Positions 1 through 37,086 of a stretch of DNA of 64,000 bases are shown piece by piece. This DNA is from Zelonia costaricensis. Its lineage: Eukaryota; Euglenozoa; Kinetoplastea; Trypanosomatida; Trypanosomatidae. Each line of letters starts with the position of its first letter. The stretch's first letter is position 1. The stretch lies in contig JASAOO010003512.1 in NCBI GenBank assembly GCA_030849075.1, positions 23,710-87,709 on the forward strand, given 5' to 3'. Position numbers and translations under genes: made by a program. A model generated the notes under the pieces. The model worked only from the letters and a program-made list of their open reading frames with translations, ran no database searches and was not told where the DNA came from.

Positions 1-569
1 AGCGGGATGGGGCGGGTGTAGGTGGCCCCCTCGATGCCAGTGTTGTAGAGCGGCGGCGTGCCGTAGAGGCCGAGCTCGATCACCTTGGGCAGCGCATCCA
101 TGCGCAGCTTCGCCAGGTCCGTCTGCTTCATCACGTGCTGCACCACCGCCATGGCGGAAGCGCTGTACGTGTTCGACAGCTCGGTGACCTTGCGGCGGTT
201 GCGGCGCTGGTTGTTGTTGCGGTTGTCCTTGCCACCCTTCTTGCCAGCCGGCCCCTTCGCGTTGCGTGGCCCGTTGTTGCGCGGGTTGAAGCGCACCGTC
301 TTCTCGCGCTCCGTGCGCAGGGCGTTGAGGCGGGCGTTGTCCTCCACCTGCTTGAACACCTTGCGCTTGTTCACCGTCACAGCCTCGTCCTCGCTGTCGC
401 TGGCCGACGCCTCCGTCTCCTTCTTGTACGTGAACCAGTCCAGCGCCTCCAGCGGGTCGGCCTTGGAGTAAAGCTCGAAGGGGGCGCCATCCTCCAGCCG
501 CATCTCCTCCTCCGGCGGCCCCCAGGAGAACTGGGGGTTGATGTACATCTCCGGCAGCACGAAGGCCAT
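1..569 (-). CDS. EIF3D: eIF3 subunit d, N-terminal part (cut by window edge)
   Basis: The first 189 codons of a minus-strand gene that runs off the left edge. eIF3d is the cap-interacting subunit of the eIF3 complex and acts in cytoplasmic translation initiation. The visible N-terminus begins MAFVLPEMYINPQFSWGPP, the family's conserved opening in which a short hydrophobic stretch leads to a WGP motif. It then has an acidic SDSEDE patch (about residue 58), a basic Asn/Arg/Gly-rich segment (about residues 93-127, containing KGGKDNRNNNQRRNRRK) typical of the eIF3d RNA-binding region, and the start of the globular domain (KVIELGLYGTPPLYN). The ATG at 569 is the first one after a predicted splice acceptor at 717-718. 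No stop is seen inside the window. The identification rests on the N-terminal motifs only. Confidence 0.85.
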   Translation of the reverse strand, partial: MAFVLPEMYINPQFSWGPPEEEMRLEDGAPFELYSKADPLEALDWFTYKKETEASASDSEDEAVTVNKRKVFKQVEDNARLNALRTEREKTVRFNPRNNGPRNAKGPAGKKGGKDNRNNNQRRNRRKVTELSNTYSASAMAVVQHVMKQTDLAKLRMDALPKVIELGLYGTPPLYNTGIEGATYTRPIP

Positions 570-1469: not shown

Positions 1470-4400
1470 TCACCTGGAGTGCCGCGAGGAGCCGGAAGCG
1501 GTGCTGGCGATGCTGCCGTTGGGCATTGCGCGGGGCGGGTGCCCGTTCTGCGGGGTCGTGAGGTCTTCGCGGGAGCTGTGCGGGGAGCCGCGCGGCAGCC
1601 GCGCGGAGCGGCGGCCGTCGTGGGTTGACCGCAACGACGGCGACGAGTAGTTCGAGAAGGACGGAAAGTTGTCGCTGGAGTCGTCGGTGTGGACGGCCGA
1701 GGCGGCGGCGCGCAGCCACGGGTGCTGCAGCAGCTCGTCCGCCGAGGCCCGCTTCATCACGTCGCGCTCGAAGCAGCGGAAGAGGAAGTCGCGGCACTGG
1801 TCGGACGTCTCCTCCGGGATTTGTGGGATGTCGTTGGTGGAGCCGACGTAGAACATGGCCGAGTACACGTTGTCGAACTCCTCGCGCCACGGCGGCTCGC
1901 CGCCGTTGAGCATCTCGACGACGGTGCACCCCACCGACCAGATGTCTGCCTTGGTGCCGTACGCCTCGCTCCGGATCACCTCGGGCGCCATCCAGAAGGG
2001 CGACCCCACGAGGGTGCCGCAGCCGCCCTGACTCGCATTCGCGATGTTGGCCAGCGACTTGCTGCACCCGAAGTCCGCCAGCTTGGCAACGCCGTAGCCG
2101 TCGATCAGGATGTTCTCGCCCTTGATGTCGCGGTGCACCACGCCCTTCTCGTGCAGGTACTGCAGGCCGCGCAGGATCTGAAACGAGTACAGCTGCATGA
2201 CGGCCTCCGTGAGGTGGGTGAACTTGCGCACAATCGAGGTGAGGCTGCCGCCGACCGCGAACTCCATGAAGACGAGCATCGTGTCGTGAATCGTGTGGGC
2301 GCCGAAGTACCGGATGATGTTCGGGTGCGACAGCTCGCGCAGCATGTTCACCTCCGCCTTGACGCTCGCCAGCGCCTCCGGGCTCTCGCTGACGACGTTG
2401 ACGTACTTGACGGCGACGAGCTTGCCATTGGTCAAGATGCCGAGGTGGACGGTGCCGTAGCTGCCCTTGCCCAGCGCCGGCCCGCAGCTGAACGTCTCCA
2501 TCTCCTCCATCGTGAGCAGGCTGCTGTGCTGCATGTTGGGCGACATGATGGGCAGCATGTTGGACGGGTCGTCGAGGTCGTAGTGGCTGAACGAGGAGGT
2601 GGTGCTGTGCCCATGCAGCAGCTGCTCCTCATTGCTGCCGCTGCAGCCGAGGATGTAGGGCCGCAGCAGCCGGTGCGTCTCGAAGCGGTAGCGCTCCTGC
2701 TTCTCCTGGTACTCGATGCGCAGCCGCGCAATCGCGTTGAGGACGTTTTCGCGCTCGAGGGTGTCGGTGCAGGCGTACACTTCGCTCTTGAGGTCGTGGA
2801 TGTGGTTGCGGATCTGCACCATCGAGCAGCGCAGCGCGTCAATCGAGACGTCGCTGGTGGACGTCGTCTGCTCCTCCACAAAGAGGACGTTGCGCCAGAA
2901 GTTGACGAAGAGCGTTATGGCAAAGACAGCGGAGGCGACGCGGAACATGCCCGTGCCCTGCGTGCAGTCCGTGTAGACGCCGGTGCGCACGAGCACCGTG
3001 TACAGGATGATGGTGGGGTAGACGAAGAAGGACTGCATCGTCAGGATGGCCATGAAGCGGTTCACGTTGCGGTACGCCGTGGGCGGGAACTTGACAATCA
3101 TCAGCAGGCGCAGCAGCTGGAAGGCGACGCAGTTGAAGACGGTCAAGAGCGGGTTGCTGTAGAAGACCTTCCACATCACCGTCTCCCACATCTGCACCGA
3201 AAAGTAGAGAAACATGATCGACGCCCGCACGCGCAGATCCATGTTCGGCAGCCGCATCTGGTTCGTCAGAATGCTCGACGGCGCCATCACACCCATCGAG
3301 ATGAAGGCGATCACCGACACGCCGACCCACACGTCCAGGCGGACGTCCTCGTACGTCGGCACACCGCGCAGCAGCGTCGGCCAGGCGATCGTGTCGACCA
3401 CTGAGGACATCAGCGAGGCCAGGAAGATGAAGTTGAGGATGGTCAGCCCGGTGTACAGCTTCGGCGCCACGTCCAGCAGGAACGGCTGACGCCGCCGGAC
3501 GTACGCGACGAGCGGGGTGCCCCACTTCTGCATGCACACAAAGAGAGTGAGCCACACAATGTAGAACATGCCGACCTTGCGCGCCCAGCTGAAGGGGCGC
3601 TGGTGGTGGGGCATCAGCAGCCGCATGCCCTGCATGAACACGCTCGCCACCGACGGGAGCGGCGCGGGGAGGCCGGGGTGGAAGGCCGCGACGGTGTTCT
3701 GGAAGCTGATCACGGTGAGCCGGCAGAAGGAGAAGTAGTTGACGGCGCTGTGGCTGAGCTCGTCCCACGTCAGGGTCAGCTGCAGCGGGCACGGCGACTG
3801 CAGGTCCGCCCACCACTCCCGGTACGTGAAGCCCCACATCGAGAGCAGCACGTGGAGGGTGCCGATGCCGCACGCAAGGCCGAAGAGCGACATCCACAGC
3901 ATGTCGCGCCGCACCGGCTGATCCGCTGGCGGGTCGTACGGCTCTCGCAGCCAGAAGAGAATGATGAAGCTGCGCCGCGCGTCGTAGTCGCGCACAACGT
4001 CCTCGGGGCACTCCATGTCCGGCCGCAGGTTCGCCAGCACGCGGCGCCGCTGCTCCTCGTGCTCCTTGGCGATGTCGGTGAGCACCGGCTGCCCGTCCGG
4101 CCCCGGCGGCGGCGCGGCACCGAGGCCGTCGTCGTCGCTCGAGGCGAGGCAGCGCACGCGCACGCGGCCGTCCGGTTGCGCCGGCACGACCGCGCCGAGC
4201 ACCGCGAGGTCGTCGACGCACACAGGCCCTGCCACGCCATGCACCTCGATCAGGCCGTCCCGCTTCATCTCCACCTTGCCCTGCAACACCGCCCGCCGCG
4301 GCTCGTTCACCACCAGCGTACCCTCGACGACGATGTGCGGCGCCACGAGCGTCGTCGCGTGGGCCAGGTACAGCGAGGAGTCGCCCCGCACCGTGATGCT

Positions 4401-7400
4401 GTCCGACACAGTGATCTGCACCGTGTCCACGACGCGCGTCTGGCTGTGCGCCAGGGTCAGCTCATCCAGCACCACCGTGGCCGGCGCACGGAGGTACACC
4501 TTTTCGCTGAGGGCGAGCCCGCTGCGCATCGGCGGGGCTAAGTGGCGGTGGCGGCGGCGGCAGAGGTGCGGCAGCGTCTCCGGCTCGGGGGAGAAGCAGA
4601 AGGCTTCGTACAGCAGCGCCCAGTCCTCGGTCCGCTCGAGCTTCGCCACAGCGCCTGTGATGATGCCGCCGGACGGCACCTGCAGGCAGCCGCGCAGCAG
4701 CAGGCGCCCGCTCATCGTCAGGTACTGCGAGGTGGGCAGGTACACCTGGCACGGCCACGTTGGCGCGCCCTCGCCGCTTGGGTCGAGCGGCCAGGCACGG
4801 GTGCTGTCCTGGAAGGGACTGAACGCGGACGGCAGACTCGCATTCACGTCCGCCCGCGCTGCGGGCGACGCGGTCGGTTCGAGTGTGGCCGCCGTCGCGG
4901 AAGGGGGCGGTGTTGGCGGCGGGCTTTCCGCCTCGAGCTCCTGGAGGCCGGAGATGTCGATGACGAACATCGTGGCGTTGGGGGCCACAATCGACGAGGT
5001 GGCGAGCGGCAGCGCGTAGCTCGGCGTGACCGCCGGGGTGCGGCGGAGGCCGAGGGCGTCGTCGGACATGTTGCCGTACATGGCGGCCATCCCGCCCACG
5101 TGGAGGATCATGTTGCCCGTGAAGCGGGCCGTGACGAAGTCGACGAGGAGGCGGCCGAGCAGCATGACCTTGGCCAGCCCCGTCGACGTCACGAAGGCGG
5201 CGTTCGCCACGTGCACGAGGGTGTGCTCGCCGAACTGGACGGTGCCGTAGACGACGACGGAGATCGGCTCGGTGAGGCCGATGCCGAAGAGCGTGCGTAT
5301 GGTGCCCTCCACCTTGAGCGAGTTGAGCACCGTGTCGTCGCCGAGAACCCGCATCACGCCGTCGCCGGTGACGGTGGACGAGATGAAGACGCAGCCCTCC
5401 ATCAGCGTCAGCACCGAGCGCTCCTCCAGCTGCACGTTTCCGCCGAGGTGCACGTTGTGTGCCGTGAGCAACGTCCCGCTCTTCAGGGTGAGACTCGCCT
5501 CGGTCGTGCTCGACGCATCGGTGATGTTGATCTTGCCAGACAAGAGCACCGCGCCACCCTGAAAGATGAAGCGGCCCGTGAGCAGCGCGTGGGAGCGCTC
5601 ATCCAGCGCGATGATGCGGAGGACGCCGCCTGGGTAGTTAGTAATAGCGTTGCGGCGGCCGGCGGAGAGGACGCTGCTGATGCTGTCCATCCCCATGCTC
5701 GAGACGGCGAGGGTCAGGTTGCCGTAGTTGTGGATCGCCCCGTCCCGCTCCATCGACAGCCGCTGCACGTCGATCGTCATCTCGCCGTAGTTGTACAGCG
5801 GCACGGAGAGCTGGCGCGTCTCGTAGCCCTGCGTGGTGATCTTCGCGTAGCCGGTGCAGTTGATCGTGCCCTTGCCCGAAATGCTCCCACCGGACCAGAC
5901 GAAGTACGACACGTTGAGGCTGCGCTGCCGCAGGTTGAGGTGGCCCTTGTCCTGCACCTTGAGCCTCGTCACGGACGCCGACTGCAGCAGCTTCACGTCC
6001 TGGTCAATGAGCACGTTCGGGCTGTCGTTGTCGATGACGACGTCCGTGCCGCGCTCTACGAGCAGCGTCGACACCCGCACGTACACGGGCGACCCCTCGC
6101 GGTGGTAGCAGACGTGGTAGATGCCGCGCTTGTGAAAGGTGCCGAAGAAGCTGACGCGCGAGCTGCTGCTGAAGAAGAGGTCGACGAAGAAGACGTTCTG
6201 CGAGGTGAAGTCGGTGCACAGCTCGTCCGTGATGACGGCCGTGTCGCGCTCCGTCAGATTCGTGCCGTAGATGGTGCCGGTGAACTCCAGCTCCGCGTGC
6301 ACCTGTGGCGGGTCGGTCGACACCCCCTCCGGGCCCGCGACCTCGTACGAGTTCATCAGCTTCACGCGCAGAAACGGCAGCGTTTCGGGGTACGGGGCGT
6401 AGCAGAGCGTCTGCACGCCGCCGCGGTGCGGGGTGAAGCGGTAGACGCTCTCGTGGATGTCCCAGCGGCTGCCGCGCACAAAGGCGCTGCGGGTGTGCAG
6501 GCAGGTGTAGCCCTCCATCACGCGCAGCCGCCGCTCCAGCGCGAACTTGTCTGACACGGTGTTCGCCGCACCCTTGAGCGGGATCGAGATGGCGCCGCCG
6601 GTGATGAAGAGCTGCCGCGACGCGTTCCAGCGCGCTTCGTCGAGCTGCAGAAACGATCGCTTGCGCACAAGAAACGGGTCGCCGGCGAGGCAGTTGTTTG
6701 GCATGTCTTGCAGCCCGAGTCGGCCCACCTGCTCAAAGAGCGAGAAGGGCAAGCACGGCACGATGAGCGCGGACGTGTGCGCCGGCAGCACCCACCGCCC
6801 GCTCGCCAGCGTCACCTTCACGGCGTGCCCTGTCGGGCTCACCTCGATGTCGCTCAGCTGCAGGATCTCCGACACAGCCCGGCGCCACGAGGGCCAGGTC
6901 TTGGTGCGGTTCCACTCATTCATCGCACTGGGCGGCACCGTTGGCAGCACGTGGTGCACGACCGTGCCGGCGTCGTCAATGAGGCGCACGTTGGTGAGGA
7001 GAATCGACGTCATGATGGGCCGGACGAGGCTGATGTTGGTCGGGAAGGTCGGGATGGAGACCTGGATCGAGAAGGTGCCGCCGCCGCGCTGGATCATGTC
7101 CTCCGTGAGGCCGTGGTACACAGAGCCGCGGTAGTGGACCGTCGTGGCCGCGGCGAACACGACGGGCCCGAATCGGCGGCCGCGGGGGCGTGCGACAGCG
7201 TATACGTCGTCCCACAGCAGCTGCCCCGCCGAGACGAGCAGCAGCAGCAGCACAAGGAGAAGCCGCAGCAGTGATGGAAACCGGCGGTGGGGTGTAGCTC
7301 TATCCGGGCCGAGTGCAAACGTGCTGCGGCTTCCCCGCACCGCGGGCGTGGCCGACACGTCGTGTGCCTGCTGGGCAAGACAAGAGCGGCACCAGCCTCG

Positions 7401-7640
7401 TGCCTCGCCCGCTTCGCTCGCCCGCACGTCGGCGCTGCCCTCACTGTCCCTGTGGCAAGAGGACGCGGCGGACGGGCCGGCCGGCAGCAGCACTGGCGCC
7501 GTCGGCCCCATCGCCGAGGTCGCCTCACTGGCTGGGAGAGCGGCGGAGGTGCTTCGGGCCGCGCTGGCCGCCTGCGGCGGGCGAAACCAGCCAAGACGAT
7601 CGCGCAGCGTCAGCAGAAGCACAGACTGCCACGCGTCCAT
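1470..7640 (-). CDS. receptor-like polytopic membrane protein with C-terminal STE11-type protein kinase
   Basis: A 2056-residue protein. Residues 1-122 are low-complexity and are followed by a strongly hydrophobic LLRLLLVLLLLLV segment (about 123-140). A large region with about ten N-glycosylation sequons follows; it has beta-helix-like stretches (about 560-890 and 1045-1130, e.g. GGSISGKGTINCTG) and a Pro-rich linker (about 900-927). Then come seven or eight hydrophobic segments between about 1245 and 1585, a charged helical stretch, and a kinase domain (about 1711-1975). The kinase motifs are intact: GKGSYG (1724-1729), VAVK (Lys1745), HRDIKGEN (His1836) and DFG (Asp1856), plus SPFWMAPE. 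The closest kinase family by motif is STE11/MAPKKK. The tail is Ser/Arg-rich. The frame stays open upstream to 8594, but that part reads CVCVCV from CA repeats. The ATG at 7640 is the first in-frame one after candidate splice sites. Ligand and pathway are unknown. Confidence 0.85.
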   Translation of the reverse strand: MDAWQSVLLLTLRDRLGWFRPPQAASAARSTSAALPASEATSAMGPTAPVLLPAGPSAASSCHRDSEGSADVRASEAGEARGWCRSCLAQQAHDVSATPAVRGSRSTFALGPDRATPHRRFPSLLRLLLVLLLLLVSAGQLLWDDVYAVARPRGRRFGPVVFAAATTVHYRGSVYHGLTEDMIQRGGGTFSIQVSIPTFPTNISLVRPIMTSILLTNVRLIDDAGTVVHHVLPTVPPSAMNEWNRTKTWPSWRRAVSEILQLSDIEVSPTGHAVKVTLASGRWVLPAHTSALIVPCLPFSLFEQVGRLGLQDMPNNCLAGDPFLVRKRSFLQLDEARWNASRQLFITGGAISIPLKGAANTVSDKFALERRLRVMEGYTCLHTRSAFVRGSRWDIHESVYRFTPHRGGVQTLCYAPYPETLPFLRVKLMNSYEVAGPEGVSTDPPQVHAELEFTGTIYGTNLTERDTAVITDELCTDFTSQNVFFVDLFFSSSSRVSFFGTFHKRGIYHVCYHREGSPVYVRVSTLLVERGTDVVIDNDSPNVLIDQDVKLLQSASVTRLKVQDKGHLNLRQRSLNVSYFVWSGGSISGKGTINCTGYAKITTQGYETRQLSVPLYNYGEMTIDVQRLSMERDGAIHNYGNLTLAVSSMGMDSISSVLSAGRRNAITNYPGGVLRIIALDERSHALLTGRFIFQGGAVLLSGKINITDASSTTEASLTLKSGTLLTAHNVHLGGNVQLEERSVLTLMEGCVFISSTVTGDGVMRVLGDDTVLNSLKVEGTIRTLFGIGLTEPISVVVYGTVQFGEHTLVHVANAAFVTSTGLAKVMLLGRLLVDFVTARFTGNMILHVGGMAAMYGNMSDDALGLRRTPAVTPSYALPLATSSIVAPNATMFVIDISGLQELEAESPPPTPPPSATAATLEPTASPAARADVNASLPSAFSPFQDSTRAWPLDPSGEGAPTWPCQVYLPTSQYLTMSGRLLLRGCLQVPSGGIITGAVAKLERTEDWALLYEAFCFSPEPETLPHLCRRRHRHLAPPMRSGLALSEKVYLRAPATVVLDELTLAHSQTRVVDTVQITVSDSITVRGDSSLYLAHATTLVAPHIVVEGTLVVNEPRRAVLQGKVEMKRDGLIEVHGVAGPVCVDDLAVLGAVVPAQPDGRVRVRCLASSDDDGLGAAPPPGPDGQPVLTDIAKEHEEQRRRVLANLRPDMECPEDVVRDYDARRSFIILFWLREPYDPPADQPVRRDMLWMSLFGLACGIGTLHVLLSMWGFTYREWWADLQSPCPLQLTLTWDELSHSAVNYFSFCRLTVISFQNTVAAFHPGLPAPLPSVASVFMQGMRLLMPHHQRPFSWARKVGMFYIVWLTLFVCMQKWGTPLVAYVRRRQPFLLDVAPKLYTGLTILNFIFLASLMSSVVDTIAWPTLLRGVPTYEDVRLDVWVGVSVIAFISMGVMAPSSILTNQMRLPNMDLRVRASIMFLYFSVQMWETVMWKVFYSNPLLTVFNCVAFQLLRLLMIVKFPPTAYRNVNRFMAILTMQSFFVYPTIILYTVLVRTGVYTDCTQGTGMFRVASAVFAITLFVNFWRNVLFVEEQTTSTSDVSIDALRCSMVQIRNHIHDLKSEVYACTDTLERENVLNAIARLRIEYQEKQERYRFETHRLLRPYILGCSGSNEEQLLHGHSTTSSFSHYDLDDPSNMLPIMSPNMQHSSLLTMEEMETFSCGPALGKGSYGTVHLGILTNGKLVAVKYVNVVSESPEALASVKAEVNMLRELSHPNIIRYFGAHTIHDTMLVFMEFAVGGSLTSIVRKFTHLTEAVMQLYSFQILRGLQYLHEKGVVHRDIKGENILIDGYGVAKLADFGCSKSLANIANASQGGCGTLVGSPFWMAPEVIRSEAYGTKADIWSVGCTVVEMLNGGEPPWREEFDNVYSAMFYVGSTNDIPQIPEETSDQCRDFLFRCFERDVMKRASADELLQHPWLRAAASAVHTDDSSDNFPSFSNYSSPSLRSTHDGRRSARLPRGSPHSSREDLTTPQNGHPPRAMPNGSIASTASGSSRHSR

Positions 7641-10600
7641 TGCGACGGGTGCACGGCGGAAGAAGAAACCTGTAGAAGGCCGAGGCGAGGCGGCGGCGCG
7701 CGCGATGCTGCTGGACACGACAGCAGACGGTTGACCGCAGCGTGCGCGTTGCGCTGCGTGCGTGCCTGTGTTGAGGCGTGGTGCTCCCACACACGGGGGA
7801 GGGGAGGGAGGGAGGGGGGGAAGCGTAAAGGAGGAGGAGGAGCACCCAGCCGCACCCACGCCCGTATACTCCTGAAAGTCGCGCGTCTGTGAGGCGCCGA
7901 CTTCGTCCAAGTAATCGCAGCAGAGAGAGAGAGAGAAGGAAGCCAAAGAAGAACGCAAAACAAAAGATGAGGGGAAGGCGGAGATGAGAGACGGGGGGAT
8001 GAGGACAGCAGACACAAAGGCAGAATGCGACACGAGACAGGGGGCGGGGGGCGGGGCGGTGGCAACGGCGCGGGGAGAGGGAGGGGACGGTGCGTGCAGA
8101 GAGGTACAAGGGAAACAAACAAAAAAAAAAAGGACGAGAAGAGAAACAAAGTGAAGCAAGAGAGGACGTGAAACAGAGAGAGGACGACACCCGCGTGCCC
8201 AACGTCGAAACGGCCGGCTGCCTTGCCGGGGGCGTTTACGAAAAAAGCGCAAGACCCAAGGCACGCACACGTACACGCACACACCCAAACACACAATTGA
8301 AGATGAGCACGCAAACGCACGTGCACTGCACGTACGGCAGTACGCGACGGTGGGCAGTGCACGCACTCTGACGCAGGAGGCGCACACACACACACACAAA
8401 CACACAGATTGGGAGGGAGGGGGTGGGAAAACAAAAAACAACAGGAAAGACCAATACGACAGTCGCTGCACTTTCTGTTTTGCGAGACGCTTTCCCGTGG
8501 CGGCCACGTGAGCGCACACACACACACACACGTGAACGGGGCACGACCTGTGGGGATGGCGAGAATAAAATGTGGCCGAGGCTAACGCGCACACGCGGTT
8601 GCCTGAGCGGAGCGCGATTGGGACCGCCCTCCTGCACCCGAGGCAAAGGCAAACGCACGAAGTCGCAGCGGAGGGAAAGGCAAGCAGTTAGCAGGGCGCA
8701 AGTAGCCGACCACAGCAGGGGGAGAACAAAACAAAAGAATCAGAGCAGAGATGCAGAGGCGAGGGATGGTAAGGGAGTGGTCGGAGGGGGGCGGGGAGGG
8801 GTACGGTGGTGCGGTGGTGAGGGTGCTGGCGAGACGACGCGGGAGTTGACCACACGACAAGGGGGGAAGGGGGCAAGGGGCGAGGGAAGCGGGAGGAGGG
8901 CGCGCAGCGGGAGAGGCTCGCACACGCGTCCTGCACACACCGGGCTTGGATGGGCGCGCGCTGGCCACGGCTGGAGAAGCGGCGGTGGTGCTGCTCCTCA
9001 GAAAGGCAGGACAAGGCAGAGCAGTGTCGGAGGCGGCGGACACGGAGGTGAAACAGAAGCGAGCGCGTGAGAGGCAAACAGGGAGAGAGAAGGATGCGCT
9101 GCAGTGACGGGGAGAACGTGGCGCTCACACGCAAGTGGCGAGGCAAGAGAGGGGAGCGAGCGACTGCGGCGTGTCCGAAAGTCGAGGCGAAGACAGACGC
9201 CACGATGGGGAGCCGGCGTATGTAAAAACACTGGTGGTAGCGGCAGTGTCGACTGGGTTCGAGAAGAAAACGAACCTTGTGTCGTGTCGGTAGTGTGCGC
9301 GGTGGGGGAAGAGGGCGGGGGGAAGGTGAGAAAGAGAGCACGCAGGGAGCGTGGCGGCGTCGGCGCGGTGCGATTTCACGACGAGCAATGAGGGGCGAGC
9401 GGAGTGCGGGGGCCCGTTGCTCGCCGCGTCGCTGTCGTGGCTCGTGCGTAAGAGGGACACACACACATACAGACACAGACACACACATACACTACCGCGC
9501 ACACAAGCAAACGCACGAGAGCACGCAGCCCACACGTGGACGACCGCGATAGCAAACCGGACCTCAAGTTTCACGCACAAGGGGAGTCAAGATGGAGCCG
9601 CTTCGGGAGAAGGGAGCGGGACGCGCGCAGACGGCGAGACGCACACGGTCACACACGGTCACACACACACACAAGACGAAAACGCGCAAAGTGCCGAGTC
9701 GCGCTGCGCAGGCGTGAGCGAGAGCGAGAAAGAAGGAGAGCAGGTGGAAAGATGTGAACACACAGACACGCACTTCGGGGGAAGAGAGAGGAGTGGATGA
9801 CGTGGGCGACAGAGGGGAACAGGGTAGAGGCGGGCAAGGGGAGGGGAGGAGGCGAAACTGAAAAGCTGGTTCACCAAAGCGGCTATTAGAAGAGAAACGG
9901 AGCAAGAACGGAAAACAAGGGGGGGACAAGAGATGCGCAGAGCAAACGAACAAAAAAAAGGTGCGCAGGTGGCAGCGGAGGGGGGGATGCCGTGCGGTGA
10001 TGAGAGGGAGGGGGAAGGGGGGGGGCAAAAAAAACAGAAGACGGGGGACAGAGAACAGAAGTGGACACGGTACAATCAGCACCACACACACGCCTACGCA
10101 CGCACGTTCTAACAACGGGCGCCGGGGTTCACGCACGCACGACCTCGACCCGGCAGGGTCGGGGGTGGCGACAAGGGAGGGGAGAGGCGATCCGGCTGGC
10201 TTTCGCGTCGTCGGTCAGGGGAGAAGAGAAAGAAAAAAAAAAGACACACCGAAAGAGAAGATACAAGGTCTTCACCTCGTGACAGTGCTTGGAAAGGGGG
10301 GGAGAGAGCGGTGGAGGAGGGAGTGGGGGGGACAAGAACAGAAGGGAACCGGTGTCTGGTGGACACGTGTGTGTGTGTGTGTGGTAGGGTGGGGAGGTGA
10401 GAAGGGAAGGCGACTTGGTGCGCAGGTGGTACACGATTAATGAGAACACACCACACAAGAAGTGGGAAGAGGAGGAGATAAAGAAGGAGAATGCGCTGCT
10501 CAATGTCGCTCGCAGGCGAAAACGTTATCTTCTGTTTCCTTTTTTGTTGTTTTGTGGAAGCTCTCTTTGCCGCTGTGTGTGCCCGTGTGTGTTTGTGAAG

Positions 10601-12160: not shown

Positions 12161-15100
12161 TCACGGGATGAATATGCGAAGCAGGCGCTCAAGTGCACTG
12201 GCGTCGCGACGGTGCTGCTGGTTGGCCAACAGCGCCTGCGACTCCATCAGCTCGTGCGTCGTGCGCCGCAGCGCCTCGTCGCGCATCATCTCCTTCTGAA
12301 TGGTGCGCTCCGTCAGCTCCTGCAGAGCCAACGTCGCGTTGCTCTCGCGCTCGCGCAGCTCCTTGTTGCGCAGCTCCGTCTGTCGCAGCACCGCCGCCCC
12401 CTGCTCCCGCTCCATGTTGATCGCATCGAGGAGGCGCCGCATCTTCTGCTTCTCCTCCTGCTCCCGTTGCAGCTGTGCCTCGAGCTCGCGCTGCTTCTCC
12501 TCCTGGATGTCAAGCTGATCCTTGTCAGCTTTGGCGAGGTCCTGGTAGCGGTCTGGCAGGTGGCAGCACGGCTCCAGCCCAAGCCCCTCCATCTGGTGAA
12601 TGAGTCGCGCGCTCATCGTGGCCATGTACTGCAGCATCGCGTTCTTCTCGAGCAGCATCTCGTCCTTCAGTCCGAGCTCCGTGTCCCGCTCCTCCAGCTG
12701 CTCCTCGAAGTCCGCCCGCTGCGTCGTCGGCGACGCCGCTGGGGTGGCGGCGGCCGGCTGCTTCGCCTGCAGCACGAGCAGCTCAACGAGCAGCTTGCGG
12801 TTGTGCACGCGCAGCTGCCGCAGCACCTTGGTGTACTCCTCCCGCGGCACCGTCTCCACGGGCTGCGTCGCCCCTGCGAGTGGCATTTCGGGCAACGCCT
12901 CGCCCACCGCCTGCAGCTGGCTCCGCAGCTCGAGGATGTGCGCGTGGTCGCGCTCGTACGCGGCTTTCGCCTTGCCAAGCTGCGCGTCGAGCTGGCCGAT
13001 GAGGTCGTCCCGCACGTCGATCTCCTGCTCCTTCATCAGCAGCACCAGCGCCACTTCCGCGCTGCCGGCGGTGAGGAGCGACTCCTCGGCATACTCGCCT
13101 GCGGGGGTGGCAGGGGCGTCGGCGTGCCCTGCAGCGGGCAGACCACGGCCCATGCCCGCGCCCACGCCATCCTCGCTCTCCTCCGTCGCGCAGCCAGGCG
13201 TACCCTGCACGAGAAGGCCGTGCAAGCTCAGCGTCCGCTCGAGCTGCTGGATGCGCTGCACGAGGCCGGCCCGGTCGCGGCTGCTGTCCGCCAGCTGCCC
13301 GTTGAGCTTCTGAATAATGCGCTTGTACGCCTTCTGCATGGCACGCGCACGCGGGCTGAGCTTGTCGCCGTCGGGCCCGCTGCTGCGCCGGCCCGCCTCG
13401 CGCGGCCCGCTCCCGACTCCAGCCAGCTCGGACATGTCGATGTCGTCGTCGCCGTCGGCCAGCGCGCGCTTCAGCGCCTCGGGGCCGTCGAGCAGGTTGC
13501 GGCGCCGCGCAATCGCCTCGCGCACGCGTGCCTCGTTGACCCGCTTCACCTCCGCCTGCAGCTCGTCGCGCTGACTACGTAGCTCGTCGATGTCGCTTTG
13601 CATAAGCAGCCGTAGACTCTCCAGCTCCTCGGGATCGACAAGCTCGGCACGCTTCTCGCGCAGGGACTGCAGCTCCTCGTTCGACTCGGTGATCTCGACG
13701 CCGGTCTGCACGAGCATCTCATGCAGCCGCTCCGCCTCCTGCTGCAGACGCGACACCTCGTCCATGCGGTCGTGCGCCAGCATCGACGCCCGGTCGAGCT
13801 GAGTTCGCAGGTCAATGACCTTGTTGTAGTTGCGCTCCACCTCGCTCTGCAGCCGCGCCCGCATCTCCTCGACCTGCGCGACATCGAGGTACGTCTCGGG
13901 AAAGTCGATGTCGGTCTGCACCTTTCCGCCCAGCGCCCGCACCTGCCCCGCTAGCGTGTCGATCGTCGCGTGCAAGCGGGCCGTGTCGTTCGCGCGTGAG
14001 GCGAGAATGGCGTCCTTCTCGGCGAGCTGCTGCAGCGCGCGCACGAGGTCTTCGTTGGTGCCGCCACGCGCGCTATCGAGCTTCTGCTGGAACTCCTCGA
14101 CCAGCCGCTCCCGCGCCAGCTTCATCTCCATCAGGCTCTTCGCCTCCTGGTGCTTCTGCTCCTTGATGAACTGCGTGATCTCCTTAGAGTGGATCTCGTC
14201 CTGGTAGCCGATCTCCTCCTGCTGCTGGTCTTGCAGGTTCTCGATCTCGGCCTGGTAGACCTCCTTGAGGTTGCGGATCTGCTGCTCACTCGCCCCGGCG
14301 GCCGTCAGCGTCTGCAGCTCCGTCGCGAAGCGCTCCTCGAGGTCGCCACGATCGCGCTGGTAGCGCTCCAGCAGCGCCTGCCGCTCCGCGTCGCGGCTGG
14401 CGATCTGCACCTCCAGCGAGCTGATTCGCTGGTCGCGCTCGCTGAGCAGGCCCATGAGCTTCTTCGACAGCTTCACGTAGTCCACCGTAACAGACACCTT
14501 CGCCTCGACCTTGACCGCCATCGCGCGCAGCCCGAACTGAAGCGTGTTCGTCGTCTCATACAGGTGCTCGCTGCTGGGGCCGACGGTGAGGATGATGGAG
14601 GTGCGGCTGCGGCCGCCGATGGAGTCTTGCAGGATGCGGGTCAGCTTCGCGTTGCGCCACGGGATGTGCTTGGTGCCCGCGGAGAGCGAGCTGACGACGT
14701 GGCCGAGCGCCAGCAGGGAGGCGTTGATCGTCTTCGCCTCGTCCTTGCGGATCGGGTCGGCGCTGGTGATGCCCGTCTTGCTGAACCGCTCGTAGCCGGC
14801 AAGGTCGATGAAGGTGACCTTTCCGCGCAGCTTGCCCTTGCGGAGGTCCTCGGGGTCCTCGGAGGTGATGTAGACGACCATTGCCGTGTGCCCGCGGCTC
14901 GACTCGGCGTTCATCGCCGTCGACCCGACGACGCGGCGGGCGTTGCCCTCGTTGTAGAACCGCATGAAGTCCTTCGAGGTGGCCAGCACGTGCGAGGTGC
15001 ACCCCGTCAGCGAGACCCCGGTCAGCTCGTCGTGATGAATCTCAACCCGGTCCTTGCCCTCGTTCGCCATGAGGTCGCCGAGGTGGTCACGGTAGATCTG

Positions 15101-15757
15101 CACAAACTGCCCTGTCACGGCGTACGTGCGAGTTGGGTCGCGCGCCGCCTCGGCGGTGATCTTGTCGAAGATGTACTGGGCGGCGCGCGGAATGATGCCG
15201 AGCTGCTGCGGGTCTGTGTTGCACATCGTAAACGACTTGCCCGTGCCGGTCTGGCCGTAGCACATGAGTGCGGAGCAGAAGCCGTTGAAGGCGTGGTCGA
15301 TGCACGGAATGGCGACCGTCTCGAACACCTCCGCTTGCTCAGCGTGCGGGTCGAAGGTGCCGTCGAAGTCGTAGTGCCGCTCGTCCTTCACCACGACCCG
15401 CTTGTCCTCCAGCGTGACCAGCGCGTGGCCGCCCTCCTTGTAGTCCTTGCGAATCGTGGGGCGCAGTCGGCAGTACACGAGGCAGCGCGACAGGGCCTCG
15501 CCGTCCTCGCCGCCGTCCCCGGCACCACCGCTGGCCGCCGTGGCGGACCCTTTTGCCGTCGACTTCTTCGACCGCTTCTTCGCCTTGGCACCCGCTGGCG
15601 ACGCGGCCGATGGCGAGGCCGCCGCGTTGGCGGTGGAGACGCACGCGACGTCGTCGTCGTCGTCGCCGGCCGCGACATCGGCAGAGCGCAGCGGCGCCTC
15701 GTCGTCCTCGTCCGGCACGCCGGTGCTCGAGGCGCTCTCGTCGTGTGGTGAACTCAT
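12161..15757 (-). CDS. kinesin, N-terminal motor with long coiled-coil tail (ARK-like orphan kinesin)
   Basis: A microtubule motor of 1198 residues. The first 85 residues are acidic and Ala/Ser-rich and precede the motor domain (about 90-415). The P-loop is GQTGTGKS (168-175), switch I is NAESSRGH (283-290) and switch II is DLAGYE (318-323). The neck-linker region reads TVGPSSEHLYETTNTLQFG, which by eye is closest to armadillo-repeat (ARK-type) kinesins of plants and the related trypanosomatid orphan kinesins. The remaining roughly 770 residues are almost entirely heptad-rich coiled coil with a short Ala/Pro-rich break near residue 1000, so a homodimer is expected. I saw no armadillo repeats in the tail. 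The ATG at 15757 is chosen over an upstream in-frame codon at 15814 because the extra 19 residues look like leader sequence. Cargo is unknown. Confidence 0.92.
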   Translation of the reverse strand: MSSPHDESASSTGVPDEDDEAPLRSADVAAGDDDDDVACVSTANAAASPSAASPAGAKAKKRSKKSTAKGSATAASGGAGDGGEDGEALSRCLVYCRLRPTIRKDYKEGGHALVTLEDKRVVVKDERHYDFDGTFDPHAEQAEVFETVAIPCIDHAFNGFCSALMCYGQTGTGKSFTMCNTDPQQLGIIPRAAQYIFDKITAEAARDPTRTYAVTGQFVQIYRDHLGDLMANEGKDRVEIHHDELTGVSLTGCTSHVLATSKDFMRFYNEGNARRVVGSTAMNAESSRGHTAMVVYITSEDPEDLRKGKLRGKVTFIDLAGYERFSKTGITSADPIRKDEAKTINASLLALGHVVSSLSAGTKHIPWRNAKLTRILQDSIGGRSRTSIILTVGPSSEHLYETTNTLQFGLRAMAVKVEAKVSVTVDYVKLSKKLMGLLSERDQRISSLEVQIASRDAERQALLERYQRDRGDLEERFATELQTLTAAGASEQQIRNLKEVYQAEIENLQDQQQEEIGYQDEIHSKEITQFIKEQKHQEAKSLMEMKLARERLVEEFQQKLDSARGGTNEDLVRALQQLAEKDAILASRANDTARLHATIDTLAGQVRALGGKVQTDIDFPETYLDVAQVEEMRARLQSEVERNYNKVIDLRTQLDRASMLAHDRMDEVSRLQQEAERLHEMLVQTGVEITESNEELQSLREKRAELVDPEELESLRLLMQSDIDELRSQRDELQAEVKRVNEARVREAIARRRNLLDGPEALKRALADGDDDIDMSELAGVGSGPREAGRRSSGPDGDKLSPRARAMQKAYKRIIQKLNGQLADSSRDRAGLVQRIQQLERTLSLHGLLVQGTPGCATEESEDGVGAGMGRGLPAAGHADAPATPAGEYAEESLLTAGSAEVALVLLMKEQEIDVRDDLIGQLDAQLGKAKAAYERDHAHILELRSQLQAVGEALPEMPLAGATQPVETVPREEYTKVLRQLRVHNRKLLVELLVLQAKQPAAATPAASPTTQRADFEEQLEERDTELGLKDEMLLEKNAMLQYMATMSARLIHQMEGLGLEPCCHLPDRYQDLAKADKDQLDIQEEKQRELEAQLQREQEEKQKMRRLLDAINMEREQGAAVLRQTELRNKELRERESNATLALQELTERTIQKEMMRDEALRRTTHELMESQALLANQQHRRDASALERLLRIFIP

Positions 15758-17049: not shown

Positions 17050-18111
17050 TCACACCTCCGGTGCCTCCTCGCTAGGCGACGCGCTGCGGCGCCCCATATC
17101 CAGCGCATCGCCTCCGTCGTCCTCGCCCGTCTCCACGTCAGAGGCGTCGCCGCTCTGACGGCCCCGCTTGCGGCGCCCCTTCTCGATCTGCTGGGTGCGG
17201 CGCGTGGGTAGCGCCGCGTCGATGGCCTTGGCCCAGTCCGGCGTGCCGGTGGCGCGCAGGCGCTCGTACGCGATGAGGACGTCGACGACGTGGTTGATGG
17301 TGAGCACCTTGCGCCGGTTACCCAGCTCCACACTCTCCTTGATGGGCAGGCGCGCCGCCCGCACCCCATGCCGCTGCGCCGCTGCGTAGCTGAGCCCCTT
17401 GTGCGCGTTGTGGTCCACGAACGCGCCAATGATGTACACCGTGTCCGGCTCAATGCTCGCCAGCACCTCCGGCGCGTCGGCCGTGAGGAAGACCACCTGG
17501 CTGGGGGCGAAGAGTTCACTCCAGTGCTGGCTTGCGGCCACGACAGGCGGGAAGCGCCGAAAGCCCTCGAAGTCGCTGAGCGCCGTCAGCACTTCCGCCT
17601 GCGCCGCGGCTTCGTGCGCGGTGTCGCCCGCCTCCGTGCCGGTCAGCGAGGTGATGGCCGGGCGGAACGGGAAGCCGGCGGTGCGCAGGGCGCTGTAGCT
17701 GAACTTGACCTGCGAGACGGTGCTCTTCGTGTTCGCCACGGTCATGCACCAGGCAAAGCTGAGGTCGAAGACGAGCGTTGGCACGTGGGGGTCTGCCAGC
17801 TGCGTCTCGCACCGCTGCAGCAGCGCGGCATCCGCCTCGCGGCGGCGTTCATGCAAGGCGGCAGCTGCGGCCCGCCGCGCCTCCTGCTCCGCGGGGGACA
17901 GGGTGTCCCACTCGGACTGTTGCGCCCTCTGCCGATCCGCAGCGGCGGCCCTCTTCCGCTCCTTCTTCTCCGCCTTCTTCTTTCGCCAGAACTCGTGCTT
18001 CTCCTCCTCTGTCCAGGCCTTGCGCTCGCGGCGGTGCTCGGGTGGCGTGTCGTGCGTCGCTGCGGGCGCACTCAGCGCGGCAGCGGCAGGCGATGACGAC
18101 GCGCTCGACAT
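17050..18111 (-). CDS. TRM10: Trm10-family tRNA (purine-9 N1) methyltransferase
   Basis: A 353-residue protein with the SPOUT fold of the Trm10 family, which uses S-adenosylmethionine to methylate N1 of the purine at tRNA position 9. The N-terminal 105 residues are basic, Ala/Arg-rich and helical (KKKAEKKERKR), as in other Trm10 proteins. The diagnostic core is YIIGAFVDHNAHKGLS (about residue 225) followed by ARLPIKE and RRKVLTINHVVDVL, which forms the cofactor-binding knot. The C-terminus is acidic and low-complexity. Whether it makes m1G9, m1A9 or both cannot be told from sequence. The 90 nt before the ATG contain no AG, so the splice acceptor is probably AG at 18203-18202 or further upstream. 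The frame is open to 18474, but that extension is Pro/Ser-rich leader sequence. Confidence 0.9.
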   Translation of the reverse strand: MSSASSSPAAAALSAPAATHDTPPEHRRERKAWTEEEKHEFWRKKKAEKKERKRAAAADRQRAQQSEWDTLSPAEQEARRAAAAALHERRREADAALLQRCETQLADPHVPTLVFDLSFAWCMTVANTKSTVSQVKFSYSALRTAGFPFRPAITSLTGTEAGDTAHEAAAQAEVLTALSDFEGFRRFPPVVAASQHWSELFAPSQVVFLTADAPEVLASIEPDTVYIIGAFVDHNAHKGLSYAAAQRHGVRAARLPIKESVELGNRRKVLTINHVVDVLIAYERLRATGTPDWAKAIDAALPTRRTQQIEKGRRKRGRQSGDASDVETGEDDGGDALDMGRRSASPSEEAPEV

Positions 18112-19517: not shown

Positions 19518-20546
19518 TCAAATGCTCGTGTACTGGATGTTCGAACGCACGCAGGTGGTGCCGGAGAGGTGAGTGCCGAGGTCGGACGGCATCGTGATGA
19601 TGGCGCGGCCCTGCACGCCCACCGCCGCGGCGGCGTTGACCATCGCCTCCGCCACCATCTCCGCCTTGCGCTCGCCGGAGGGCTGCGACAGCAGGTCACC
19701 GCGGCGGCCCGGCACCAACGCGCACACGCTCGGGCCCGCGCCGGAGAGGAACGCGTAGACGGCCCCCGCCTCCCGGGCCGCCTTGGCACACTCGTTGTAG
19801 TGCGGGTACAGCTTCGCAGAGCGCTGCTGCTCGTGCAGGTGGTCGCTGGCGTCCTTCAGCAAGCGCAGGTCGCCGGTGGAGAGGGCGAGGGTGAGGATGG
19901 CGGTGCCGGAGATGTTGTGAATGGCATCGCGCAGGGACACCGTCGTGGGCACGAGGTCGCGCGTGACGTTCGTGCTCGCCTTCATGAGCTTGTACGGCAC
20001 GAAGAGGACGATGGACAGGTTTGGCGGGGTCGGCACGCGGTACGTCATGACGCTGCCGTCGTCCTTCTTGTAGCCGAGCTGAATGCCGCCGTAGATGGCC
20101 GGGGCGGCGTTGTCGGGGTGGCCCTCGATCTTGGAGATGACGGAGAGCAGTGCCTCGCTGTTCTGCGTCTCCATGGTGAGGCCGGAGAGCGTCATGCCGG
20201 CAACGAAGCCCGCAGCCGCGGCCGCCGAGGAGGAGCCGCAGCCGCAGCCGTACGGGATGTTGTTGTGCATCGTGAACTTGAGCGGCGGCATGCTCTGCTT
20301 CGCGTACTCCTCGAAGGCGATGCGGCAGGTCTGCACGACCATGTTGTCCTCCCCGGTGCTGATGTGCTCATGGCCTTCGCCAGTGATGGTCATCGAGAAG
20401 GTGTCAGCCACCTCGACGGTGAGCTCCATGAAGATGGACAGCGCCATGCCGAGGGTGTCGTAGGCGGGGCCCAGGTTTGCCGTCGTCGCTGGAACGCGAA
20501 GGCTGACCCGCTTGGGAAGCGGCGCGGCCGCGGAGGTGGCAGACAT
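19518..20546 (-). CDS. HSK: homoserine kinase (GHMP kinase family)
   Basis: A 342-residue enzyme that phosphorylates homoserine with ATP (EC 2.7.1.39), the step before threonine synthase. The N-terminus carries the family strand and turn LRVPATTANLGPAYDTLG (about 17-33). The GHMP ATP-binding loop is IPYGCGCGSSSAAAAAG (97-113), with Cys residues where most family members have Leu or other residues. A second motif, IEGHPDNAAPAIYGG, is the conserved HPDN(A)AP of homoserine kinases, and the C-terminal glycine-rich motif FLSGAGPS is present. Length is normal for the family. No targeting peptide is evident, so a cytosolic location is inferred. The start is the ATG at 20546; the codon just upstream is GTG and is not used. 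A predicted splice acceptor lies 52 nt upstream. Confidence 0.95.
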   Translation of the reverse strand: MSATSAAAPLPKRVSLRVPATTANLGPAYDTLGMALSIFMELTVEVADTFSMTITGEGHEHISTGEDNMVVQTCRIAFEEYAKQSMPPLKFTMHNNIPYGCGCGSSSAAAAAGFVAGMTLSGLTMETQNSEALLSVISKIEGHPDNAAPAIYGGIQLGYKKDDGSVMTYRVPTPPNLSIVLFVPYKLMKASTNVTRDLVPTTVSLRDAIHNISGTAILTLALSTGDLRLLKDASDHLHEQQRSAKLYPHYNECAKAAREAGAVYAFLSGAGPSVCALVPGRRGDLLSQPSGERKAEMVAEAMVNAAAAVGVQGRAIITMPSDLGTHLSGTTCVRSNIQYTSI

Positions 20547-28127: not shown

Positions 28128-29279
28128 CTAGCTGGCGCTCTTGTTGCCGTTCGTTGCAACTGCCGCCACCGCCGCGACCTTGGCCTCCTCCAGCGCCTCC
28201 GTCTTGACGTAGTTGAGCTTCATGGCCACGTAACCGGGGGCGAACTCGTTCGTGGTGCGGTGCAGGACGCTGTACTCGGGGTAGTACTCCGGCTCCACCC
28301 CGATCGCGTCGCCCTCGTTGTACGCCTTGCCCACGGCGCTCTCGGGGTCGAGGAAGACGATGACGGTGAAGCGCTGCGGCCGGAACACGCCGAGCACCTT
28401 GCGCATGCGGTCCGCGTAGTTGGCGGCTCGGCTGTTCGTCTCGTACGAAGCGAAGGAGCAGTGGTCCTCCGGGGTGATGTGCATCGTCTGGTACTCCTCG
28501 TCGCGGATGGCGTTGATGCTGTACCCGCACGGCTCGAACTGGAGGTCGTGCATGGTCCACGTGTCGTCGACGACCTTGTCCAGGTGCGTCGCAGCCCTGA
28601 TCGCCGCCGTCTCGTCGCTCTTGGAGATGAAGCGGTCGCTGAACCAGTGCTTCGTCTGCTCCTTGTCCAGGCCGTACATGGTCATACTGAGCTGCGTGTC
28701 GTCCTCGGAGCTGCACGGCCGGATGATGTCGTCGTAGCAGAAGAGGAAGTAGTGGTCACTGTCCACCGGGCCGAAGATGTACGGCTTACCAGTTGGGAAG
28801 TGCTGCTTCAGCGTCGTAAACTCGTCGGCGAGGGACGTGTGCGGGCCCTTCTGCTCCCACGGGAAGGAGTAGTTCTTGTGCATGAACGAGACCCATTCAA
28901 GCTCGCCACGCACGGCGCTGATGGCCTCGATGATCTTGGGAATGCTGTTCAGCAGCGTCGTCGTGCCGCACGTCATGAGAATGATGCGGTTCTTCATCAC
29001 GAAGAGGGAGCTCTCGGTGAGGACGTAGCTCTTGATAAAGTCGTTGGCCTGCCGCGACACAATCTGGGCGTTGAGAGAGCCGACCACCTCGACCCAGACG
29101 CTGTCGTCGAGACTGCGCAGCCCGTCAACGTGCGTCTCGGGAGTGAAGCGCAGAATTACTTCGAGCCGCTTCTCCGGCCCCTCGAAGCTGAAGCCCTGCT
29201 CGGGGTTGTAGCCCTTCATCGACCCCCACATCGCCATGAGCGTGAGGGGATCCTTCGTGGTGGGCGACGAGACGCTCAT
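28128..29279 (-). CDS. AdoMetDC: S-adenosylmethionine decarboxylase proenzyme
   Basis: A 383-residue pyruvoyl-dependent enzyme (EC 4.1.1.50) that makes decarboxylated AdoMet, the aminopropyl donor for spermidine and hence trypanothione. The autocleavage site is YVLTESSLFV: cleavage is expected between Glu89 and Ser90, with Ser90 becoming the pyruvoyl group. The catalytic Cys is C104 (LMTCGTTTLL). The processing residues are Ser254 (CGYSINAI) and His267 (TMHITPE), all in family-consistent positions. The overall fold motifs KNYSFPW and GPVDSDHYFLF are present. In trypanosomatids the enzyme is activated many-fold by heterodimerising with the prozyme, encoded 13.6 kb upstream on the same strand. 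A predicted acceptor gives a 46-nt 5'UTR. The C-terminal Ala/Val tail is low-complexity. Confidence 0.97.
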   Translation of the reverse strand: MSVSSPTTKDPLTLMAMWGSMKGYNPEQGFSFEGPEKRLEVILRFTPETHVDGLRSLDDSVWVEVVGSLNAQIVSRQANDFIKSYVLTESSLFVMKNRIILMTCGTTTLLNSIPKIIEAISAVRGELEWVSFMHKNYSFPWEQKGPHTSLADEFTTLKQHFPTGKPYIFGPVDSDHYFLFCYDDIIRPCSSEDDTQLSMTMYGLDKEQTKHWFSDRFISKSDETAAIRAATHLDKVVDDTWTMHDLQFEPCGYSINAIRDEEYQTMHITPEDHCSFASYETNSRAANYADRMRKVLGVFRPQRFTVIVFLDPESAVGKAYNEGDAIGVEPEYYPEYSVLHRTTNEFAPGYVAMKLNYVKTEALEEAKVAAVAAVATNGNKSAS

Positions 29280-29325
29280 GGCGGCGTGCGATACGTAAGG
29301 GCCGGTACGGTAAAGGATGTAAGTG

Positions 29326-29394
29326 CTGGAGAAGCGAGGGCAGGAGGTGGGGGGAGGGACAGATCGGGTACGATGGGCGAGGGGACGACCAAGA
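29326..29394 (-). promoter_or_regulatory. predicted trans-splice acceptor for AdoMetDC mRNA
   Basis: The minus strand is AG-free from 29394 to 29328, rich in CTCCCCCC-type pyrimidine tracts, and ends in CTCCAG with AG at 29327-29326. Predicted 5'UTR is 29325-29280 (46 nt), without upstream ATG. Confidence 0.55.
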
Positions 29395-30620: not shown

Positions 30621-30735
30621 AACCCACCACCGCACTCCCTCCGCACCGCAACAACGACGGCTGGGCAACGAAACCACNAACCCACCACCGCACTCCCTCC
30701 GCACCGCAACAACGACGGCTGGGCAACGAAACCAC
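30621..30735. repeat. exact 57-bp direct duplication flanking a single N (probable assembly join)
   Basis: Positions 30621-30677 and 30679-30735 are identical over 57 bp and are separated only by the N at 30678. They directly follow a C homopolymer (about 30603-30618). The arrangement suggests two contig ends overlapping rather than a biological repeat. Confidence 0.9.
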
Positions 30736-36700: not shown

Positions 36701-37067
36701 GATCTGAATAGGGACTTCGCTCTTGTTGTTGGTGTTGTTGTTCAGGGAAGCGGACAGAAAGGGGGGAAGGGTCGTGTTGTGGTTCTCTGTGAGCCTTCGT
36801 TGCGTCACTTTGTGCCTTCGTAAGGAACATGCAGGCGGGGAAAACAAGTGACTTCACTGCGTGCTGAAGTAGAGGCGTGCCACGCGCAGCGCCCCTCACG
36901 ACCGGTCATGCATGCGCATACCTGCTGTGCTGTCGCCTCGCTTCTCCCTTCCACCTTCCCCTTCCATTCCCTCGTGTTCTTTTTTTTCGCGTCCGCGTCC
37001 TCGTGACCCGCGCTACCTGCACACAAACGGCTGGTGCGCAACAGCGGAGCAGCCGCGCTTCTGTNCC

Positions 37068-37086
37068 GGGGGGGGGGGGGGGGGGG
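37068..37086 (+). repeat. G homopolymer (19 nt) next to an unknown base
   Basis: A run of 19 G preceded by CC and an N at 37065. Homopolymers of this size often break assemblies, so the exact length is uncertain. Confidence 0.85.

Follow-up and report, generated by a model that had tools for sequence, protein, structure and literature searches.

Introduction

Receptor tyrosine kinases and canonical G-protein-coupled receptors (GPCRs) are reportedly missing from trypanosomatids (PMC1266030, PMC9149261), and how these organisms sense their surroundings is an open question. Multi-pass transmembrane kinases have already been described in Trypanosoma brucei (Jensen et al. 2021, PMC8519429), MEKK1, RDK1 and DAK among them. 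In that species MEKK1, which is multi-pass, and also FHK belong to the integral membrane proteins of the flagellum and flagellar pocket and have kinase activity (PMC8519429). Here we describe a gene in a 64,000-nt stretch of Zelonia costaricensis DNA (contig JASAOO010003512.1, positions 23,710 to 87,709 of the forward strand), which is called the window hereafter. The gene lies on the minus strand, which the original prediction had left unstated, and encodes a protein of 2056 residues, in which an exported ectodomain, nine membrane passes and a cytosolic kinase are predicted to follow one another in a single chain. We propose, with a probability of about 0.55, that it belongs to an old euglenozoan family and acts as a receptor-like MAP3K, linking a ligand to a mitogen-activated protein kinase (MAPK) cascade.

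In the T. brucei transmembrane kinases, too, membrane segments are joined to a Ser/Thr kinase at the C-terminus, which in MEKK1 and RDK1 resembles MAP3K or STE11 kinases. The ten in the survey are at most 1678 residues long, against 2056 here, and others among them carry Kelch, cyclase, FHA or histidine-kinase-like parts; an IPT/G8/beta-helix ectodomain followed by nine helices is described for none of the ten in the accessible text (PMC8519429). Orthology with RDK1 was considered and rejected, since its published layout is sensor-like part, membrane segment, cyclase-like part and kinase (PMC8519429), whereas in the window protein nine helices and a hairpin are modelled ahead of the kinase. 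No cyclase Pfam match was obtained in the window protein or in the 23 aligned proteins scanned. Orthology with MEKK1 was set aside as well, MEKK1 being described with a two-helix hairpin alone (PMC8519429). Two other Leishmania kinases, P0073 and P0075, were examined as RDK1-like candidates and showed no membrane segment at the threshold used.

The ectodomain recalls a different group of proteins. Fibrocystin (PKHD1) carries IPT domains, G8 and then parallel beta-helix repeats (PMC13424714), as is modelled here, and in TMEM2 the G8 forms part of the beta-helix (PMC10206443), again as in the model. Fibrocystin, however, has one membrane pass and no kinase (PMC13424714), and the sequence likeness to fibrocystin, TMEM2 and CEMIP is confined to a borderline G8 match. 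The single-pass receptor kinases of animals and plants show the same order of ectodomain, membrane and cytosolic kinase as is predicted for the window protein, but they cross the membrane once and have TK or TKL kinases, in contrast to nine passes and a STE-type kinase; no relation to them was found outside the kinase domain. MAP3K2 and MAP3K5 are soluble cytosolic kinases with a similar kinase domain, which is here tied to a membrane module and an ectodomain. Among the open-licence papers that the searches listed, none was seen to describe a protein joining a fibrocystin-like ectodomain and a nine-helix module to a MAP3K. Multi-pass trypanosome kinases and fibrocystin-like ectodomains are known separately, and what appears to be new is their union with the nine-helix module and a MAP3K.

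Reading frame and kinase domain

The coding sequence occupies 1470..7640 of the minus strand, on which all features of the gene given below also lie, with the Met at 7640, the stop at 1470-1472 and 2056 codons between them. The stop-to-stop frame that contains it runs from 1470 to 8687 (2405 aa), and at this base composition the probability of 2405 codons without a stop by chance is about 1e-23. The G+C content at third codon positions (GC3) is 0.93 in the frame, as against a G+C content of 0.62 at first and 0.47 at second positions; GC3 amounts to 0.92-0.96 from about residue 151 onward and to 0.74-0.78 upstream of that. The first Met is supported because the N-terminal tip W-Q-x(3)-L-L-x-L-R-D-R-L is also kept in P0004 (Leishmania martiniquensis) and P0007 (L. 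tarentolae). The uninterrupted 2056-codon frame of the original prediction is thus borne out by open reading frame (ORF), GC3 and homologue evidence.

Forty-eight homologues (P0002-P0048 and P0122) were aligned with the window protein; 42 of them entered the membrane-module alignment, 37 the ectodomain alignment and 23 the alignment A3, and P0016, P0020, P0044 and P0046 cover the protein only in part. Conservation was calculated across 45 rows including the window protein, with P0046, P0047, P0002 and P0122 left out.

A STE11-like kinase domain occupies residues 1721-1976 (1713..2480; Pfam PF00069, 1.3e-67). Its G-loop, Lys, HRD, DFG and APE motifs are all in place and are invariant across the 23 proteins of A3, so the kinase had rightly been read as intact. 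Its best PDB match is MAP3K2 (9p6a_A, E 2.7e-58), followed by PAK 2 (1.9e-51) and MAP3K5 (8.3e-50). MAP3K2 and MAP3K5 are members of the STE11 group, and judged by these PDB matches the kinase is nearest to STE11 kinases. NCBIfam gave matches within the kinase domain only, far under the cut-offs. The C-terminal tail that follows (residues 1977-2056, 1473..1712) is poorly conserved. On the other side of the kinase lies a stretch with a predicted local distance difference test score (pLDDT) below 50 and low conservation, presumably a flexible tether (residues 1668-1707, 2520..2639). It is preceded by a two-helix hairpin (residues 1598-1664, 2649..2849), seen as AlphaFold2 helices at model positions 409-434 and 438-475. 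Conservation is 0.55 in the hairpin versus 0.45 in the adjoining membrane module, and the hairpin may be the natural site for pairing or transmission.

Membrane module

A membrane module of nine predicted helices occupies residues 1244-1586 (2883..3911), as judged from AlphaFold2, hydropathy and charge balance. The AlphaFold2 model of residues 1190-1715, built with 43 sequences, has a mean pLDDT of 83.6 and a predicted template modelling score (pTM) of 0.82, and places the helices at 1244-1268, 1299-1317, 1350-1384, 1386-1422, 1437-1463, 1473-1492, 1497-1517, 1524-1552 and 1563-1586. The hydropathy of the window protein gives seven segments in 1247-1582, and the family-averaged profile adds one near 1311. 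The original prediction of seven to eight segments therefore holds as regards a polytopic module, while its count gives way to the nine of the AlphaFold2 model. With the nine-helix assignment, Lys and Arg are denser on the predicted inside in 48 of the 49 aligned sequences, which are mutually related, the margin being slight in the window protein itself. Nine passes would put the ectodomain and the kinase on opposite sides of the membrane. Cys 1559, conserved in 45 of 47 sequences, is located in a predicted outside loop, and E1294, N1301, W1363, D1468, W1490, K1491, Y1523, N1525 and N1527 are near-invariant. That the cytosolic loops are the most conserved part of the module was considered and discarded, conservation being 0.37-0.62 inside and 0.43-0.53 outside.

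No relative of the module came up in Pfam, the PDB profile search or Foldseek. Pfam gave nothing past a chance-level HemS in the 23 proteins scanned and the window fragment, the family profile of the module retrieved zero PDB chains at E<=10, and Foldseek with the membrane model found nothing at E<=0.001, with a best E of 0.39. The VIA-align rows for the membrane model mainly span the C-terminal hairpin, and thus barely probe the nine-helix bundle. A likeness to TRP-like or Flc proteins, which had been considered, has no support in Pfam. The modelled nine-helix module is possibly a new fold.

N-terminus and ectodomain

The chain begins with an extension of 120 residues, predicted to be cytosolic (7281..7640), which several close relatives also have in the alignment; outside its conserved tip it is poorly conserved, with 24-27% identity to P0003-P0007. 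The N-terminal hydrophobic anchor noticed earlier is present at residues 121-143 (7212..7280), where hydropathy and alignment predict a signal anchor. Such a segment begins within 30 residues of the N-terminus in 26 of the 49 aligned proteins, including those of Trypanosoma cruzi and Diplonema, and later in 11, the window protein included. None is seen at the threshold in the other 12, including L. donovani P0003; some of these are truncated gene models.

Twelve sequons lie in residues 144-1240 as compared with 4.7 in shuffles (P=0.0012), in agreement with the sequon-rich ectodomain of the original prediction, and none lies within residues 1241-1715. For each of eleven ectodomain cysteines, 41-48 relatives are aligned at the column, and no fewer than 40 of them keep the residue. 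Sequons, conserved cysteines and charge balance, as predictions, all agree with an ectodomain/cytosolic-kinase arrangement. The expectation that the large domain faces outside or a vesicle lumen and the kinase the cytosol is thus consistent with the predicted topology of nine helices.

The ectodomain opens with residues 163-433 (6342..7154), in which the AlphaFold2 model contains an alpha/beta portion and Ig-like strands, and which is marked off also by conservation. An IPT/TIG-like domain is modelled at residues 434-533 (6042..6341). It precedes a G8-like stretch at residues 532-627 (5760..6047), assigned from a borderline Pfam match: on the window ectodomain G8 scores 22.7 bits (E 9.6e-5), just under the cut-off of 22.9, with the full frame it scores 19.4 bits, and in relative P0006 25.6 bits, being matched in three of the 23 proteins scanned at E<=1. 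In the AlphaFold2 model the G8-like stretch continues into a beta-helix (residues 530-851, 5088..6053). Fibrocystin shares the modelled order of IPT, G8 and beta-helix, but has neither the nine helices nor the kinase. Further on, the alignment shows a conserved-cysteine stretch at residues 961-1032 (4545..4760; C964 45/48, C985 46/47, C1015 41/46 and C1027 41/41), and AlphaFold2 strands indicate a second beta-solenoid at residues 1041-1134 (4239..4520). The beta-helix proposed from the letters alone is supported by the AlphaFold2 model.

Six chains came back from Foldseek with the ectodomain at E<=0.001, namely an antibody fusion, NCAM, a chain of a receptor-arrestin complex, filamin A, contactin 4 and intimin; normalised to the target, their TM-scores are 0.12-0.33. 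The VIA-align partners of the IPT-like part include the bacterial adhesins invasin and intimin. TMEM2 (8C6I) was not among the best 50 VIA-align rows for the ectodomain, which counts as no evidence against the likeness.

Relatives and conservation of the family

The first homology search returned 186 proteins, of which the best 120 were listed, the searches scoring just the 7983-7986 candidates that share most words. Among the matches listed, the closest named relatives belong to Leishmania, Novymonas, Porcisia and Leptomonas. The named Leishmania members are those of Leishmania donovani, L. martiniquensis, L. sp. Namibia, L. tarentolae and L. shawi; further members occur in Porcisia hertigi, Novymonas esmeraldas, Leptomonas pyrrhocoris, L. 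seymouri and, partially, Strigomonas culicis, and among trypanosomes in Trypanosoma grayi, T. cruzi, T. cruzi marinkellei (partial), T. theileri, T. melophagium and T. conorhini. Most named trypanosomatid relatives align over the full length, and environmental relatives were found as well. The database names are 'Protein kinase-like protein' in Leishmania, Novymonas, Leptomonas, Strigomonas and Trypanosoma, and 'Mitogen-activated protein kinase kinase kinase A' in Diplonema papillatum; no account of the ectodomain or membrane module of these relatives was found in the open-licence papers searched. No match named T. brucei occurs among the best 120 of the 186 proteins or among the 20 of a second list, many entries of these lists carrying no name, and the gene has likely been lost in the T. 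brucei lineage. In the source genome (28.7 Mb, 755 contigs, 133 kinase-domain matches, some kinases split in two pieces) the gene is single copy at the search sensitivity, the membrane module and the ectodomain each retrieving only itself.

Two proteins were excluded on inspection. P0047, one of the 23 proteins of A3, matches the family only in its two kinase domains. P0123 was considered as a kinase-less relative, and its match breaks off at residue 1256 of 1396, still within the membrane module, the remainder being unmatched in the three sequences compared; it is probably a frameshifted or intron-broken gene model. A search for kinase-less relatives with P0037 found only P0037 itself and P0123.

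Conservation is distributed unevenly along the chain. Averaged over nine close relatives, identity with the window protein is 94% in IPT (79-100), 91% in G8 (75-99) and 94% in the kinase (86-97), while it is 71% in the rest of the beta-helix, 65% in the membrane module and 49% in the second solenoid. Across the wider alignment, outside the kinase (0.80), IPT (0.61) and G8 (0.59) rank highest. For a surface-type domain of species that live in different hosts, conservation of this order points to a ligand or partner that stays constant. Since IPT and G8 match the kinase in conservation among close relatives, the ligand is probably one common to species of different hosts and not a mammalian host factor.

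Age of the design

Kinetoplastids and diplonemids are separate classes of Euglenozoa, and the relative from Diplonema papillatum (P0048) was compared with profiles trained on 41 rows from which P0048 had been held out, the E-values being those of single comparisons with filters off. P0048 matches the membrane module at 4.7e-36, the hairpin at 4.6e-10 and the kinase at 4.5e-100; the beta-helix after G8 is matched at 3.6e-10, part of the N-terminal domain at 1.2e-9 and part of G8 at 8.5e-6. The best reversed or shuffled control reached 8.7e-4 and one control kinase 8e-5, both with the N-terminal profile. That control kinase, the best of the controls, is P0058, a kinase/Kelch protein from a eukaryote transcriptome, with E 1.3e-4 and 8e-5 against the ectodomain N-terminal profile. 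For IPT nothing was found in P0048 at E<=0.05, and the second solenoid rose hardly over reversed controls; a match of the 163-533 profile to P0048 stems from the N-terminal domain and not from IPT.

Because these modules are shared by a diplonemid and kinetoplastids, the union of beta-helix ectodomain, membrane module and kinase is probably older than the split between the two classes. IPT and the second solenoid could be later additions or could have diverged. A bolder possibility, about which we are doubtful, is that before the split there existed a receptor-kinase class of Euglenozoa's own, with a beta-helix ectodomain (fibrocystin-like at least in kinetoplastids), a nine-helix module of new fold that, in place of a single helix, would carry the signal across the membrane, and a MAP3K wired to it, a class which was then lost in the T. 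brucei lineage. Its absence from the trypanosome membrane-kinase catalogue would follow from that loss. The failure to find IPT and the second solenoid in Diplonema makes such a class less likely.

Proposed mechanism and alternatives

In the receptor-like MAP3K that we propose, the signal anchor, which is signal-peptide-like in about half of the aligned relatives, would route the protein into the secretory pathway, so that the cysteine-conserving ectodomain of IPT-like, G8-like, beta-helix and second solenoid parts would be exposed outside the cell or in a vesicle lumen. The nine helices would return the chain, with the hairpin and the STE11-like kinase in the cytosol. Binding of a conserved ligand, which is probably a glycan or else a surface protein acting as partner, might then alter the packing or pairing of the membrane bundle, and the hairpin would relay the change to the kinase and hence to the MAPK cascade. 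Computation establishes the single frame, the domain order, the intact kinase motifs and the conservation in kinetoplastids, which for most modules extends to a diplonemid. The folds, export and topology are predicted from models, and from these we infer the location, the ligand, the direction of signalling and the MAPK output. The protein accordingly keeps its place as a candidate environmental or ligand sensor, as had been suggested, while sensing itself and the ligand belong to the conjectural side. Being single copy and widely conserved, and combining a MAP3K with a secretory-type ectodomain, it is a direct and testable candidate for connecting a MAPK cascade with the exterior. Such an old design may let single-celled flagellates sense their surroundings. 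T. brucei, the species in which membrane kinases were surveyed (PMC8519429), appears to be without the gene.

The ectodomain may instead remain lumenal, in the endoplasmic reticulum (ER), lysosome or flagellar-pocket vesicles, and report folding, glycans or pH in the manner of ER stress kinases, which we regard as unlikely. Five of seven tagged T. brucei transmembrane kinases were found in the ER (PMC8519429), a transmembrane domain is predicted in five Leishmania kinases, of which LmxM.02.0570 was in the lysosome and flagellum (PMC7902614), and the unusual conservation of IPT and G8 would fit an internal ligand. An ER signal, however, denotes entry into the endomembrane system, with onward passage to Golgi, lysosome and endosomes possible (PMC8519429); this leaves a lumenal sensor standing and makes the ER itself uncertain, and the solved G8/beta-helix ectodomain belongs to TMEM2 of the cell surface (PMC10206443). 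The near-invariant polar and aromatic residues of the membrane module exceed the needs of a plain anchor, and could mean that the nine helices move a solute while the kinase regulates or responds to it, as in TRPM7-type enzymes. Such a channel- or transporter-kinase is rather improbable in our estimate, as no channel or transporter family was met in Pfam, in the PDB profile search at E<=10 or by Foldseek, an absence that is weak evidence. More improbable still would be an adhesion or flagellar scaffold, whose ectodomain binds matrix, substrate or itself and whose kinase marks or maintains the contact; the likeness of the IPT-like part to invasin and intimin is in its favor, and strong IPT and G8 conservation would suit homotypic contact, but the complete conserved kinase motifs indicate active signalling.

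The analogy drawn in the original prediction, a GPCR-kinase fusion, starts from the polytopic module directly preceding the kinase. It now appears very improbable, for nine helices are predicted and not seven, and 7tm Pfam families are absent at E<=1 in the 23 proteins and at E<=10 in the window fragment. In the searches of the module described above, Pfam matched no GPCR, channel or transporter family, the family profile no PDB chain with E<=10 and Foldseek nothing at E<=0.001, and trypanosomatids are reported to be without canonical GPCRs and heterotrimeric G proteins (PMC9149261, PMC1266030). One may finally ask if the assembly has joined two genes, or if the kinase is made from its own trans-spliced mRNA. 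We give this hardly any credence: the frame is unbroken, the membrane module, hairpin and kinase stand in equal order in Diplonema, and homologues on independent assemblies, including chromosome-size Leishmania and Leptomonas contigs, have an identical domain order, a repetition that disfavours an assembly fusion. The receptor-like MAP3K remains the reading we prefer.

Neighboring genes and a second G8 protein

An eIF3 zeta gene adjoins the kinase gene at window 3-569 (minus strand). P0122 is a 3462-aa gene model that holds this kinase family, with the kinase partly missing, together with an eIF3 zeta domain, so that the two genes seem to have stayed neighbors in a distant relative as well.

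A second G8 protein lies elsewhere in the genome, in a 5398-aa open frame (contig C502:22143-22538, minus strand, locus L001 of G000). In the 1132 aa scanned, TIG (4.5e-9), G8 (2.1e-19) and a CEMIP-type beta-helix (5.3e-5, under cut-off) follow in order, and on these profile matches it is a fibrocystin-like giant in a trypanosomatid. When the family ectodomain was aligned by hhalign with this canonical TIG-G8-beta-helix protein, IPT was placed on TIG, but at E 0.12, no better than a reversed control at 0.09.

Farther along the window, still on the minus strand, are a kinesin (12161-15757), a tRNA m1G methyltransferase (17050-18111), a GHMP kinase (19518-20546) and a valyl-type tRNA synthetase (46106-49030). 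An S-adenosylmethionine decarboxylase (5.2e-96) is found at 28128-29279 (minus strand), and a partial, weaker decarboxylase match (2.8e-11) 13.6 kb upstream at 42849-43802 (minus strand); the two are reminiscent of the trypanosomatid enzyme/prozyme pair. The approximately 13.6 kb between them (29280-42848) contain no ORF passing the length and GC3 filter. All 11 of the window ORFs that pass the filter are on the minus strand, as in a trypanosomatid directional gene cluster.

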